Assembly (NCBI RefSeq): GCF_018137985.1
Contig: NZ_CP073084.1
Coordinates: forward strand, 682,001 to 746,000
Origin: Streptococcus oriscaviae
Lineage (GTDB): Bacteria; Bacillota; Bacilli; Lactobacillales; Streptococcaceae
Direction of reading: 5' to 3'
Length of the DNA: 64,000 bases
The first letter of the stretch is position 1. The number at the start of each line of letters is the position of its first letter. The position numbers were made by a program, and so were the translations under genes. Below are positions 10,447 through 57,991 of this stretch, piece by piece. The notes beneath the pieces are model-generated. The model did not search any database, had not been told where the DNA came from, and worked only from the letters and a program-made list of their open reading frames with translations.

Positions 10447-10962
10447 TTAACGTTTCAAGTCAATATGCTTGGATAATTTGTCGATGATAACAGCTCCTAT
10501 GAGCAGTGAGAGCAATTCTCCCCCCGCTGTTGTCAGCCAAGTTGTAAAGAAAGGTAAATCGTAGAGAACCTTTAACTCCAAGGCAATGGTGAACATGCTA
10601 GCTGAAAAGAAAAGGGAAAAATACAGAAAAGCCTTATTGACCAAACCGCCCAGAAGATAGTCCTTCTGGTAACGTTCAAAGAGCATGACCCCAAGTGTGA
10701 CAAAAACTAGGGTCGAAAGGCCGCCAACAAAAAGGTCCACAATTCCAAAACCAATCAGATTAGAAATCATACAGCCAATAGTTACACCAATGATGTACTT
10801 ACGGTTGTAGAAGGCTAAAAAATTAAGCATTTCTGACAGACGGAACTGGATGGCTCCGAAGGAAATAGCATTGAGTGGGGGTGTCAGAGTCAGGGCCACA
10901 TAAATGGCCGCAACAAGGGCGATGTCCGTCATATCACGGGCAGTGAGTTTTTCTATTTTCAT
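10447..10962 (-). CDS. queT: Queuosine precursor transporter QueT
   Basis: Predicted S component of an ECF transporter for queuosine precursors (preQ0/preQ1), 171 residues with about five hydrophobic helices. The start chosen is the ATG at 10960-10962 (MKIEKLTARDMTDIALVAAIY), which has an AAAGGAGAA RBS formed by the 3' end of a preQ1-II riboswitch. A longer open frame back to 11124 would put the riboswitch inside the coding region and is rejected. Family motifs include TPPLNAISFGAIQFRLSE. The riboswitch strongly supports the substrate assignment. Confidence 0.95.
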   Translation of the reverse strand: MKIEKLTARDMTDIALVAAIYVALTLTPPLNAISFGAIQFRLSEMLNFLAFYNRKYIIGVTIGCMISNLIGFGIVDLFVGGLSTLVFVTLGVMLFERYQKDYLLGGLVNKAFLYFSLFFSASMFTIALELKVLYDLPFFTTWLTTAGGELLSLLIGAVIIDKLSKHIDLKR

Positions 10963-10965
10963 GTG

Positions 10966-11024
10966 TTCTCCTTTGGCGGCTATACCGCTTGTAATATGCT
11001 TGGCTAAAGGGAGGAAGTGCCAAG
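10966..11024 (-). ncRNA. preQ1-II riboswitch (COG4708 motif)
   Basis: Read on the minus strand this 59-nt segment has the preQ1-II architecture: a hairpin whose arms are CTTGGC and GCCAAG around a pyrimidine-rich loop, then CATATTACAAG, a GCGG/CCGC hairpin and the tail CAAAGGAGAA that carries the Shine-Dalgarno sequence of queT. The AAAGGAG tail is known to pair in the ligand-bound pseudoknot, hiding the RBS and lowering translation. The class is known from Streptococcaceae upstream of this gene family. A second hairpin (GTTGCTG/CAGCAAC) lies just 5' of it, between promoter and riboswitch. Confidence 0.93.
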
Positions 11025-11052
11025 GGTTGCTGCAAACACAGCAACGTTGACA

Positions 11053-11064
11053 AGTATAGCATAT
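11053..11064 (-). promoter_or_regulatory. Probable queT promoter -10 region
   Basis: TATGCTATACT on the minus strand just upstream of the queT leader; TATACT is a good -10. The -35 is weak (T-rich). The divergent gtrA-like gene starts only about 30 bp away, so the two promoters share this short interval. Confidence 0.5.
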
Positions 11065-54716: not shown

Positions 54717-54733
54717 TGCGGTTAAACCGCAAT
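54717..54733. repeat. 17-bp palindromic repeat, copy 2 (candidate operator)
   Basis: Identical to 53740-53756. It lies 45-60 bp upstream of the CI-like gene's promoter. Between it and the -10, two near-direct repeats TTTTTGCGTTTTT (about 54743-54755 and 54784-54796) share the TGCG half-site. Confidence 0.6.
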
Positions 54734-54777
54734 ATCAAGAACTTTTTGCGTTTTTCCCGCATTTTTTTGTTTTTTTC

Positions 54778-54806
54778 TTGATTTTTTTGCGTTTTTGCCG
54801 TAAAAT
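54778..54806 (+). promoter_or_regulatory. Promoter of the CI-like repressor gene
   Basis: TTGATT (54778-54783), 17-bp spacer, TAAAAT (54801-54806), 27 bp before the ATG at 54833; RBS GCGAGGAAAA. Confidence 0.7.
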
Positions 54807-54832: not shown

Positions 54833-55594
54833 ATGCTAATAGAAAACAAAGATATTTTCTCGAAAAATCTAAAATACTATATGGATAAAAAAGGAGTTGA
54901 TAGAAATCAACTCTGCTCCGATTTAGATTTAAAGTATACAACTGTACGAGACTGGATAAAAGGTATTACATACCCACGAATCGATAAAATCGAATTGCTT
55001 GCAAATTACTTTGGGATTAACAAGTCGGATTTGATTGAAGATAAAAGAACTCTTTCAATAAATCGCGCCACAGAAGCCCCTGACAGCCCCGTAGCGATGA
55101 TTTCGCCCAAGGTGGTATATTTAGACCAGGAGCTCAAAGAACCGCGCCACAGCGCCTGGCTTGGCCACGGTGAGCAGCTTCTGAAAGAGCAGTCCCTCGA
55201 ACTGCGAGAAGAACCTCTCTTTGAGTACCGTATTTATGAGAAATTATCTGCAGGTACAGGGACGGCCATCTATGAAGACCACAGTTATGATCTGGTCTAT
55301 TTTGACAAGGACCTGGACCACGACATTGCCAGCTGGATCTACGGCGACTCCATGGAACCAAAATACCACCATGGCCAAGTGGCCCTGATTAAGGAGACAG
55401 GCTTTGACTACGACGGGGCCATCTACGCCGTGGTCTGGGATGGCCAGACCTACATCAAGAAAGTATACAGAGAAGAAGACGGCCTGCGCCTGGTCTCGCT
55501 TAACGACAAATACTCCGACAAGTTCGCCCCCTATGACGAAGACCCGAGAATCATCGGCAAAATCGTCGGTAACTTTACACCGGTGGAGAGATAA
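54833..55594 (+). CDS. CI-like repressor with LexA/S24 self-cleavage domain
   Basis: A 253-residue phage-type repressor. Residues about 8-72 form an XRE helix-turn-helix (LKYYMDKKGVDRNQLCSDLDLKYTTVRDWIKG). Residues about 130-250 are an S24 peptidase domain: cleavage dipeptide in KLSAGTGTAIYED, catalytic serine in YGDSMEPKYHHGQ and lysine in TYIKKVYREED. RecA-triggered self-cleavage would induce the element during the SOS response. The DNA-binding part is AT-rich and the peptidase part clearly GC-richer than anything around it, which suggests a domain exchange near residue 80. Confidence 0.92.
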   Translation: MLIENKDIFSKNLKYYMDKKGVDRNQLCSDLDLKYTTVRDWIKGITYPRIDKIELLANYFGINKSDLIEDKRTLSINRATEAPDSPVAMISPKVVYLDQELKEPRHSAWLGHGEQLLKEQSLELREEPLFEYRIYEKLSAGTGTAIYEDHSYDLVYFDKDLDHDIASWIYGDSMEPKYHHGQVALIKETGFDYDGAIYAVVWDGQTYIKKVYREEDGLRLVSLNDKYSDKFAPYDEDPRIIGKIVGNFTPVER

Positions 55595-55637
55595 GGGAAC
55601 TATTTAAAAATTTTTTTATAACATAGAGGCTTATCTA

Positions 55638-55666
55638 TTGCAATCTGGTTGAGATTAATCTATAAT
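55638..55666 (+). promoter_or_regulatory. Promoter of the structured RNA and abi gene
   Basis: TTGCAA (55638-55643), exactly 17 bp, TATAAT (55661-55666), predicting a start near 55673, just before the structured RNA. Confidence 0.8.
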
Positions 55667-55672
55667 TAAGTC

Positions 55673-55742
55673 AATCGATGAATAGGCGCGCTAAGCGTCA
55701 TACCAAAAGGGCCTCTTTTATGGGGTCCTTTTGCGCTTCATG
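55673..55742 (+). ncRNA. Structured leader RNA, abiF-type candidate
   Basis: A compact fold can be drawn. ATGAA (55678-55682) pairs with TTCAT (55737-55741); GCGC (55686-55689) pairs with GCGC (55733-55736); directly stacked on this, AAAAGGGCCTC (55705-55715) pairs with GGGGTCCTTTT (55722-55732, two G-T pairs) around a 6-base loop. An unpaired stretch 55690-55704 (containing TAAGCGTCATACC) is left on one side. It starts at a strong promoter and ends at the GGAG of the abi gene. An RNA motif named abiF upstream of such genes is known from comparative work; membership needs a covariance-model search. Confidence 0.65.
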
Positions 55743-55753
55743 GAGATTAGAAA

Positions 55754-56722
55754 ATGAAACCTTTTACAGACAAAGAACAGCAAATAGCAATACTAAACAG
55801 ACGAAATCTAAATTTTATAGATGTAGAAAAAGCAAAGAAATTACTAATGCGCTATGGATATTACGAAGTAGTGAACGGATATAAAACTTTCCTTCTGAAA
55901 GAAGAATGCGAATCCGAGGAATTTAAAGACGGCGAGACATTCGAACACCTTATCGCCCTTTATGAGCTAGACAAAGACATCCGAAATGGTGTTATGAAAG
56001 CCAGCTTAGAAATAGAACTATCATTGAGAACTGCCATCGCATACACTCTAGCTGAAGATTTTGGAGTTCATCAGCGAGACTACCTTCACTATCGAAATTT
56101 TAGACAAGGAGATAGTATTTGGGGGAACGGCTCTCCAACTAATGAAAGAGCGGTACTGCTAAATAAGCTAAACGCTCTTACAAACAAAAATATAGAACCA
56201 CTTAACCATTACAGAGCTTTCCATGGCCATATCCCTCCTTGGATACTATTAAAAGAAACCACGTTTGGCAATTTAAAGCACCTATTCAAGCTCTTAAAGG
56301 GGCCTCAAAAGGATAAAGTGATTTCAATTTGCTATGGAATAAATATTGACGAAGTAACGGAGGAGAAAAAATCTTTATTCAAAGACAGTCTGTCTGTAAT
56401 TAATAGCTTCAGGAATCGAGCAGCACACAGTGGTAGAATATTTAACTACAAATCCAATTTACATATTCTTCAATTTAATCAGGAATTTCACTCTGAAATT
56501 GGGATTACAGCGGCTAGTTACAGAAACGGATTAGGGAAAAGCGATCTCTATACTCTGTCGAAATTATTATCTAGATTTGAAAATAGCCTTGCCAAAATCA
56601 ACCTCGATTTCTATACGACTTACTCAATAGATAAACATTGCCAAATATATCCAGATGATCTAATGTTACTTTCACAAGAGATGAATTTCCCGCTTGAGGA
56701 ATTAAAATATAATCAACAATAA
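55754..56722 (+). CDS. Abi_2 (AbiD/AbiF) family abortive-infection protein
   Basis: A 322-residue protein of the AbiD/AbiF group (Abi_2). The start TDKEQQIAILNRRNLNFIDVEKAKKLLMRYGYYEVVNGYK with the RYGYYEVVNGYK motif is diagnostic; ELDKDIRNGVMKASLEIELSLRTAIAY follows (about residues 73-99). The HEPN-type catalytic motif Rx4H is visible as FRNRAAHSG (about 218-226), so an RNase activity is plausible. Family members stop phage growth by killing or arresting the infected cell. RBS GGAG lies directly behind the structured RNA. It is cargo of region B, next to the integrase. Confidence 0.92.
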   Translation: MKPFTDKEQQIAILNRRNLNFIDVEKAKKLLMRYGYYEVVNGYKTFLLKEECESEEFKDGETFEHLIALYELDKDIRNGVMKASLEIELSLRTAIAYTLAEDFGVHQRDYLHYRNFRQGDSIWGNGSPTNERAVLLNKLNALTNKNIEPLNHYRAFHGHIPPWILLKETTFGNLKHLFKLLKGPQKDKVISICYGINIDEVTEEKKSLFKDSLSVINSFRNRAAHSGRIFNYKSNLHILQFNQEFHSEIGITAASYRNGLGKSDLYTLSKLLSRFENSLAKINLDFYTTYSIDKHCQIYPDDLMLLSQEMNFPLEELKYNQQ

Positions 56723-56723
56723 A

Positions 56724-56765
56724 AAAGCCCTACGCTCAACTTTGGCCGGTCCGAGCGTAAGGCAA
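56724..56765 (+). terminator. Hairpin after the abi gene
   Basis: Arms GCCCTACGCTC and GAGCGTAAGGC (one mismatch) with a 15-base loop just after the abi stop. An A-run precedes it and no clear T-run follows, so it may act mainly as a minus-strand terminator. Confidence 0.5.
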
Positions 56766-56848
56766 AATGTAAAGAAATCTTTTCAAAAGACATTATCTTT
56801 TGAAGTGTTTTCTTATACCCATTTTAACACAGAAATGAGGTAAAAACA

Positions 56849-57991
56849 ATGTGGGATGAACAACTTCCAGACGGCAGATATAAATTTTTTGAACGATACA
56901 AAGATCCATATACTGGAACTTGGAAAAGAGTAGCTACTATTTTAACAAGCAATTCAAGCAGGGCGCAAAAACAAGCACAAAAAATTCTTGAGCGACGTAT
57001 TGCAGAAAAAATAGCTCAGCTTAAAACATCTGAAATGCTCTTCACTGACTTGTTTGACCAGTGGTGGACTTTTTACCAACAAGAAATCAAACGCTCCTCC
57101 ATCGCTTCTCTGAGTGGTAATATCAAAGAGATAAGAGAAAGTTTTGGATTAGGTGTCAAAGTTGTCAATATTGACCCTAAGTACGTCCAGAATTACCTGG
57201 ACAGCCTAGACTGCTCTAGAAATAAAAAAGAGCGGACCAAGTCCATGCTTAACCTTGCCTTTGACTATGCAGCAGACTTGGACATCATCAAAGACAACCC
57301 TGCCAGACGGGCCAAACTTCCACGGGTCAAAAAGACTTTGGAAGATTGGAAAAAAGTTGAAGAAAAGTATCTTGATGAAGACGAAATTAAGCCCCTGTTG
57401 AAAGAATTATATAGACGACCTAGCACGTACCGAACAGCCCTGTTGGCTGAATTCATGAGCCTTAACGGCTGCCGTATTGGTGAGGCAGTCAGCCTTGAGC
57501 CAGGCAATCGTGATTTTGAAACCAAGGTCTTACAACTGCACGGGACCTATGACCACACGGGAGGCTATCGCAATGGTGAGAAAACAACTCCAAAGACTAA
57601 TGCTTCATACCGTGAAACAATCATGACCAAACGGGAAATGGAAATACTCGAGGAAATGGAATTTATCAACGAGTTAGAAAAAAACACCAACCCAAGATAC
57701 AGGGAAATGGGCTATATCTTCACAACTAAGAACGGTGTTCCAATCCAAACCAACTCTTTCAACCTGGCCTTAAAAAAAGCCAACGAACGACTTGAGAAAC
57801 CAATCCAAAAAAATCTGACCAGTCACATCTTCCGCCACACCCTGGTTAGTCGCCTGGCAGAAAACAGAGTTCCGCTGAAAGCTATTATGGATCGTGTTGG
57901 CCATGCAGATGCAAAGACAACAACCCAAATCTACACCCATATCACCAAAAAACTCAAGGCAAATGTAGCTGAAATCATGGAAAACTACTAA
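56849..57991 (+). CDS. Tyrosine site-specific integrase
   Basis: A 380-residue phage-type integrase that would insert and excise region B. Arm-binding domain about residues 1-50 (YKFFERYKDPYTGTWKRV), core-binding SAM-like domain about 60-150, catalytic domain about 170-380. The catalytic residues are all present: arginine in LNGCRIGEAVSL, lysine in the strand TPKTNASYRE, HIFRHT (H-x-x-R), GHAD histidine and the tyrosine in QIYTHIT. RBS ATGAGGTAA. As is usual it lies at the very end of the element, next to the likely attachment site beside hup. Confidence 0.95.
   Translation: MWDEQLPDGRYKFFERYKDPYTGTWKRVATILTSNSSRAQKQAQKILERRIAEKIAQLKTSEMLFTDLFDQWWTFYQQEIKRSSIASLSGNIKEIRESFGLGVKVVNIDPKYVQNYLDSLDCSRNKKERTKSMLNLAFDYAADLDIIKDNPARRAKLPRVKKTLEDWKKVEEKYLDEDEIKPLLKELYRRPSTYRTALLAEFMSLNGCRIGEAVSLEPGNRDFETKVLQLHGTYDHTGGYRNGEKTTPKTNASYRETIMTKREMEILEEMEFINELEKNTNPRYREMGYIFTTKNGVPIQTNSFNLALKKANERLEKPIQKNLTSHIFRHTLVSRLAENRVPLKAIMDRVGHADAKTTTQIYTHITKKLKANVAEIMENY

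Follow-up and report, generated by a model that had tools for sequence, protein, structure and literature searches.

The available part of PMC12373285 reports that AbiF systems are modules with an RNA antitoxin and that Cas13 descends from them. According to that text, the RNA RCd22, which carries two abiF motifs (RF03085), neutralises AbiFCd by direct binding, a terminator with read-through is found at the AbiFCd locus, and the release of the AbiF toxin is left open. For AbiD1, the accessible portion of PMC2661086 describes activation of translation by the phage protein Orf1 or by cold. Here we describe a locus in a 64,000-nucleotide stretch of Streptococcus oriscaviae DNA (the window, by which the whole of that stretch is meant), in which a structured leader RNA precedes an Abi_2 gene. 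The analysis points to this leader RNA as probably holding a probable RNA-cutting defence protein in check.

Gene context and the Abi_2 protein

The abi gene with its leader (55638-56722) lies between a CI-like repressor gene and an integrase gene, in an apparent small prophage-like element. The features of the region are given below with their window coordinates and strand.

54833..55594, + strand: CI-like S24 repressor gene, co-directional with and upstream of the leader
55625..55632, + strand: AGAGGCTT, just 5′ of the −35, candidate displaced partner of the hairpin 2 left arm
55638..55666, + strand: leader core promoter TTGCAA-17-TATAAT, by eye, scan score 10/12
55673..55753, + strand: leader RNA of about 81 nt, its start placed from the −10
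55678..55682 and 55737..55741, + strand: outer stem AUGAA/UUCAU round both hairpins, in the predicted fold
55685..55699, + strand: hairpin 1, GGCGC-GCUAA-GCGUC, a conserved small hairpin with arms at 55685-55689 and 55695-55699
55704..55733, + strand: hairpin 2, 12 bp, terminator-like, with arms at 55704-55715 and 55722-55733
55742..55745, + strand: Shine-Dalgarno GGAG, partly paired with the leader 5′ end in the predicted fold
55754..56722, + strand: intact gene for an Abi_2/AbiD HEPN protein of 322 aa, a putative RNase toxin
56849..57991, + strand: tyrosine integrase gene of the element

The CI-like repressor gene is a possible origin of read-through into the leader. Nine proteins of the element were compared with PHROGs. 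No clear attachment repeat was found for the element, the sole match being one of 11 bases, 16 kb off. The window gene is the one Abi_2 match in the source genome.

Several other elements were observed in the window. On the 5′ side of the CI-like gene there is a palindrome, GCGGTTAAACCGC, at 54718-54730 and a repeat array at 54743-54800 (Tandem Repeats Finder), which together are perhaps the operators of that gene. On the 3′ side of the abi gene, a sub-threshold match to Rfam RF02589 (Spy779816) covers 56722-56818 on the reverse strand, with 44.3 bits relative to a cut-off of 67; the match to this model is stronger (56.5 bits) at positions 1189-1273 of another Abi_2-gene locus, L047. Rfam also places a PreQ1-II riboswitch at 10960-11063 on the reverse strand (84.6 bits).

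The abi gene product matched Pfam PF07751 (Abi_2) with 121.3 bits at a cut-off of 25.6, and the PADLOC AbiD model with 139.9 bits. Its Rx4-6H RNase motif is intact (R220-N-R-A-A-H225), and R220, N221 and H225 are invariant across 24 aligned sequences, in agreement with an earlier note on this DNA, which had described an Abi_2 protein with an intact Rx4H motif. The structure predicted from 24 sequences has a mean pLDDT of 93.5, and its sole PDB match at E ≤ 0.001 is 8vz6, in which a dimer of PbAbiF holds an ncRNA (E 1.5e-8, TM 0.66/0.71, 20% identity). The same entry is also matched by sequence profile (E 5.2e-21) and is the sole significant PDB match both ways. It was found that the single window protein, used as the query against genome and viral contigs, returned no relative, whereas alignment queries did find relatives.

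The leader RNA and its family

The −35 of the leader promoter (TTGCAA) is at 55638-55643 and the −10 (TATAAT) at 55661-55666, with a spacer of 17 nt. The region has no more promoter-like sites than its shuffles would give (7 found, 6.7 expected). The window promoter is credible because close relatives keep a promoter, TTGACA-17-TATAAT, at the equal position; the earlier note had named this same TTGCAA-17-TATAAT promoter, and inspection by eye confirmed it. Overlapping its −10 edge is a perfect 10-bp palindrome, AGATTAATCT (55652-55661), which occupies the place of a segment that in close relatives is complementary to an arm of hairpin 2. With regard to CI control of the leader promoter, the 12 bases round AGATTAATCT occur once in the window at up to 1 mismatch, a 17-base version occurs once at up to 3, and the palindrome 5′ of the CI gene is, by eye, a different one. 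Tandem Repeats Finder (score 50) found no tandem antitoxin repeats at the leader, in a scan that could miss strongly diverged copies and whose sole array was that at 54743-54800.

The predicted fold of 55668-55756 has a free energy of −32.0 kcal/mol (z −4.07), which 0 of 200 shuffles equalled. The earlier note had proposed a 70-nt RNA with three stacked stems: the structured fold stands, but the length deduced here is about 81 nt, the supposed GCGC/GCGC stem is the GGCGC/GCGUC of hairpin 1, and the hairpin given as 11 bp measures 12 bp. The third stem, ATGAA/TTCAT, is present in the predicted window fold, where it is the strongest of 68 leaders (−9.3), but across these 68 leaders it is weakly conserved (z −2.5; equalled by 125 of 20000 permutations), and it was therefore dropped as a feature of the whole leader family. 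Hairpin 2 is followed by a U run of length 4 and is absent from the terminator-scan list; its left arm is the counterpart of the promoter-complementary arm in relatives.

The pairing of the Shine-Dalgarno sequence with the leader 5′ end in the predicted fold would suit a purely local control of the gene, in which the leader is a 5′ UTR attenuator or a translation switch as in AbiD1 and has no antitoxin role. AbiD1 is indeed regulated at translation, as far as the available text of PMC2661086 goes, but its element is described there as a weak AU-rich stem, unlike the window leader, and RCd22 is reported to act in trans (PMC12373285, available part). The distribution of the RNA, given below, also bears on this explanation.

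The earlier note had suggested a search with the Rfam abiF covariance model (RF03085, gathering score 37). This model gave no match in the window, and nothing up to E 10 in 55590-56860, whereas the positive control, the phiC2 locus (L128), whose RNA resembles RCd22, scored 37.6; 1 of the 18 loci given to the model was matched. A first alignment of 35 leaders yielded no consensus pair, and the model made from it (R1) was set aside. Model R2 was built from the leaders of 18 relatives, with the window left out and hairpins 1 and 2 imposed. The R2 structure was drawn from several of these same sequences, which favours that structure, and with it 81.2% of cells pair compared to 67.0% in shuffles, 47 cells are changed on both sides compared to 22.3, and the score is 0.462 compared to 0.241, the last two values being reached by 0 of 500 shuffles. 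Two of the five measures are weaker: pairs with both-side changes number 12 relative to 9.3 (15 of 500 shuffles reach this), and the measure of pair types is reached by 75 of 500. Both-side changes were found in 5 of 5 model pairs of hairpin 1 and in 7 of 11 of hairpin 2, and so the compensatory changes in homologues for which the earlier note had proposed to look are present in both hairpins among the 18 relatives.

R2 matched the window leader at 55669-55730 with 39.1 bits (E 1.1e-10), and its one other window match, of 10.8 bits, is to the reverse complement of hairpin 2. Judged by sequence comparison, the window leader is a member of a covarying RNA family, and it represents a class of leader RNA outside the Rfam abiF model and within a known kind of RNA-antitoxin system.

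When R2 was run on the window and 84 of 459 loci, 33 matches were obtained at E ≤ 1, and 26 of these are directly 5′ of an Abi_2 gene. Matches at E ≤ 0.01 occurred in 19 of the 85 sources, some being near copies of training leaders, and R2 therefore captures some two-hairpin leaders but not all. The search of 284 Streptococcus genomes (E 1e-4, stricter filters) gave 17 matches in 17 genomes, 11 directly 5′ of an Abi_2 gene and 6 lacking it (L460, L462, L465, L470, L473 and L474). The first abi codons remain in L460 and L462, and in L465 other genes come next. At E 0.01, no Abi_2 match was obtained in five of the six genomes with an orphan RNA, and the sixth has a distant one on another contig. 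Retention of the RNA without the toxin gene could fit an antitoxin, and recent deletion of the abi gene could also explain these orphans. Because RNAs are retained without the abi gene, and given the two differences noted above, we consider it quite improbable that the leader acts only in cis.

Some related units were seen beside these leaders. Upstream of the orphan RNA of L473 (Pfam, L473 alone) there is a pair of genes, DUF6978 and DUF1828/DUF1829. Second promoter-hairpin RNA units, besides the gene-adjacent leader, are found about 400-500 nt 5′ of the Abi_2 start at L155:1058, L193:1105 and L144:995, and at L191:3390 and L189:2487 such units are at or just past the Abi_2 gene end and have some promoter-arm complementarity. 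Other Abi_2 genes (L249, L263, L257, L181, L276 and L054) are preceded, by eye, by single-hairpin leader types, in which one hairpin seemingly is both RNA and terminator and promoter complementarity is little or none.

Complementarity between the hairpin 2 left arm and the promoter

It was found that in filtered two-hairpin leaders (n = 86) the left arm of hairpin 2 tends to complement the core promoter of its own leader. The filters (promoter score of at least 15, hairpin of −13 kcal/mol or better, no more than 40 nt from the start) removed 137 of 223 leaders, and the remaining 86 were tested by comparing own with swapped promoter/arm partners in 20000 permutations. They fall into three non-overlapping sets: set 1, in which the pattern had first been seen (27 of 81 non-redundant leaders were kept); set 2, collected after set 1 and with less than 85% leader similarity to it (39 of 86 pass); and set 3, chosen as set 2 was (20 of 56 pass).

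The duplex value for own partners was −10.17 relative to −5.76 for swapped partners in set 1 (n = 27, z −9.3), −8.34 relative to −5.41 in set 2 (n = 39, z −8.9), and −8.12 relative to −5.72 in set 3 (n = 20, z −4.7), with 0 of 20000 permutations reaching the own value in each set. The longest exact run was 6.67 compared to 4.60 in set 1 (z 9.0), and the z value for run length in set 2 was 6.3. An earlier clustering by leader similarity had merged 49 of 66 leaders, and protein clusters (50% identity) were used in its place: own partners beat the swap in 33 of 42 clusters over all three sets and, for sets 1 and 2, in 25 of 28 by duplex and 22 of 28 by run length. Exact runs of at least 7 were present in 31 of 86 own pairs and 240 of 7310 swapped pairs, and runs of at least 8 in 13 of 86 and 74 of 7310, respectively; in 55 of the 86 an exact run of 7 is lacking. 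Two-hairpin leaders often have the complementarity but are not defined by it. It is limited to about −35 to +2, with none upstream to −96 and none in the transcribed part.

In a control set of 38 units, each separated from the nearest Abi_2 ORF by more than 700 nt, own partners were slightly better than swapped ones (z −2.4), and runs of at least 8 occurred in 0 of 38, though few would be expected. A first control set (z −3.9 and −2.6) had been discarded because 4 of the 5 top units inspected adjoin Abi_2 genes. A further 93 leaders, pooled, gave z −5.4, a value that includes near copies of tested leaders and is therefore not counted as evidence; the lowest ranks among them are, by eye, mostly single-hairpin leaders, but the leader of the window itself is also there, as are some with two hairpins.

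The two arms of hairpin 2 are not equivalent in this respect. Counted at non-Watson-Crick stem positions in 46 well-aligned leaders, bases of the promoter segment are complementary to the left arm at 49 positions and identical to the right arm at 8, compared to 569 and 523 with swapped partners (Fisher p 1.9e-7). The promoter is therefore matched to one arm only, as base pairing would require. The direct match of the promoter to the right arm is weaker (z 3.6 in set 1 and 3.5 in set 2), and this, together with the left-arm bias, disfavours a protein-bound DNA operator as the source of the similarity between promoter and hairpin. G-U pairs are without excess in the complementarity (0.156 relative to 0.149), and hairpin wobble pairs did not prove to be clustered under the promoter partner (48 of 362 positions under that partner and 66 of 442 elsewhere).

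The window leader itself lacks complementarity to its own promoter, with a longest run of 4, a duplex of −3.7 and 0.2 predicted promoter-arm pairs compared to 3.5 with swapped promoters. The same is true of the RCd22 copy in phiC2 (−4.3; 38 of 86 foreign arms are as good). The window copy would have dropped the promoter element, by loss or displacement. The segment AGAGGCTT gives a duplex of −12.3 with the left arm, which 3 of 85 other arms and 339 of 5000 shuffles match in strength, and as a displaced promoter element it is suggestive only.

We found no description of promoter complementarity of such leaders in the open-licence literature (titles and abstract starts), and the available part of PMC12373285 does not describe it; the words ‘antisense’, ‘orphan’ and ‘satellite’ are absent from that paper. 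On the evidence of the swapped-partner tests, promoter complementarity in the relatives is strongly supported and apparently new.

Proposed read-through, possible self-recognition and known systems

Pairing of the left arm could involve RNA or DNA. Read-through RNA was expected where the upstream gene is co-directional and no terminator-like hairpin lies between (n = 62), and unexpected where the upstream gene is divergent (7) or such a hairpin is present (5); 12 leaders of unassigned direction were set aside. The own minus swap value was −4.30 where read-through is expected and −0.77 where it is unexpected (n = 12; p 8e-4), and with cluster means the split persisted (28 and 11 clusters, p 0.005); it had first come to light in a subset of 66 leaders. 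Exceptions that keep the signal are the divergent cases L309, L248 and L236 and the hairpin cases L193 and L327, the intervening hairpin of L193 being a second RNA unit. Since the complementarity is reduced in leaders that should receive no read-through from upstream, read-through RNA is favoured as the partner. Against a purely RNA-based reading, the signal is independent of the gap width to the upstream gene (rho 0.12) and is not enriched in G-U pairs.

When the RNA was cut before the right arm, 7.34 pairs with the promoter segment were predicted compared to 3.62 with swapped partners, and own was above swap in 70 of 86 leaders. With the right arm present, the terminator beats the antiterminator (0.15 pairs, with 4 or more in a single leader of the 86), and so the antiterminator would have to be kinetic. 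The complementary segment often overlaps −35 or −10 bases by eye, which counts against a pure RNA view because an antiterminator would not need this overlap.

Such overlap would be expected if the left arm paired with its own melted promoter, as RNA alone or with AbiF, and shut that promoter. The restriction of the complementarity to about −35 to +2, the one-arm nucleic-acid pairing in place of a symmetric protein operator and the lack of G-U enrichment all agree with RNA-guided self-repression of this kind, for which CreA/CreR with Cascade or Cas12a is a precedent (available part of PMC12737573) and ‘potential RNA-guided capabilities’ are cited for the AbiD/F ancestor of Cas13 (PMC12373285, in the part available). 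A DNA target, however, does not predict weaker complementarity where read-through is unexpected, the left arm is sequestered in a hairpin (−13 kcal/mol or better by the filter used), and the complementarity is missing at the window promoter and in RCd22. AbiF is not known to need a guide, which also counts against such repression. We therefore regard repression of the promoter through an RNA guide as unlikely, and start-site-dependent attenuation is preferred over it. It is similarly doubtful that the left arm is a guide-like segment that recognises its own promoter, as open-complex DNA or read-through RNA, for autoregulation by pairing; if this were true, it would be a case of RNA self-recognition before CRISPR guides, in a protein family thought to be ancestral to RNA-guided Cas13.

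A functionless by-product, for example of local composition or of a hairpin that arose from duplicated promoter sequence, would account for the small effect in the control units (z −2.4) and for the absence of complementarity from the window and RCd22, but it does not fit the three swapped-partner sets, the 33 of 42 protein clusters, the 49:8 left-arm bias or the association with read-through, and we consider it very unlikely.

We think it probable that the system pairs a HEPN toxin of the AbiD/F type with an RNA antitoxin encoded in cis; in the preferred model, a transient antiterminator would form in read-through RNA. The published work on AbiF and RCd22, taken with the family data presented here, makes an RNA antitoxin the most likely interpretation. 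The own promoter would yield a short two-hairpin RNA. By analogy with RCd22/AbiFCd and PbAbiF, hairpin 1 would bind and silence the toxin, and hairpin 2 would end or attenuate transcription so that the RNA exceeds the toxin mRNA. In relatives with the complementarity, RNA from a co-directional upstream gene would include the promoter segment, which would pair with the left arm while the right arm is still to be transcribed, so that polymerase reaches the toxin gene, whereas RNA begun at the own promoter would have no such segment and would end as antitoxin. At the window locus we infer antitoxin function, termination and read-through. The suggestion in the earlier note of an RNA-protein toxin-antitoxin unit is thus matched by the reported AbiF system, by 8vz6 and by the covariation, although not by the Rfam abiF model.

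A leader class that in the window goes undetected by the Rfam abiF model widens the known set of AbiF-type RNAs. The promoter-complementary arm is an easily mutated element for asking how toxin and antitoxin output is set, and with it one can also ask if promoter self-recognition by such RNAs is older than CRISPR guides.

Among known systems, the ToxIN-type type III toxin-antitoxin modules have the order promoter, RNA antitoxin, terminator and toxin, which the window resembles with its promoter, candidate RNA antitoxin, terminator-like hairpin and putative toxin, but they have tandem antitoxin repeats, of which none were found in the window, and a different toxin (PMC12373285, available part). 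The CreTA/CreR RNAs resemble the leaders of the relatives in their partial complementarity to the promoter of their own module, and differ in that they act with Cascade or Cas12a, whereas the leaders here show complementarity by sequence alone (available text of PMC12737573). Lactococcus AbiD1 is also an AbiD-type protein with a leader that affects expression, but its Orf1 binding and its weak AU-rich stem, placed at the RBS, set it apart from the window with its strong predicted hairpins (PMC2661086, accessible portion). PbAbiF (8vz6), an HEPN dimer with bound ncRNA, matches the window protein in fold and in sequence, at 20% identity, a likeness seen at the level of the protein. AbiFCd-RCd22 of the C. 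difficile prophage phi027 differs in its abiF motifs, which are present in RCd22 (one is detected by Rfam in the phiC2 locus) and absent from the window leader; as in the window, it has an Abi_2 HEPN gene in a prophage, with a promoter, a structured RNA and a terminator-like hairpin 5′ of the start codon (available part of PMC12373285).
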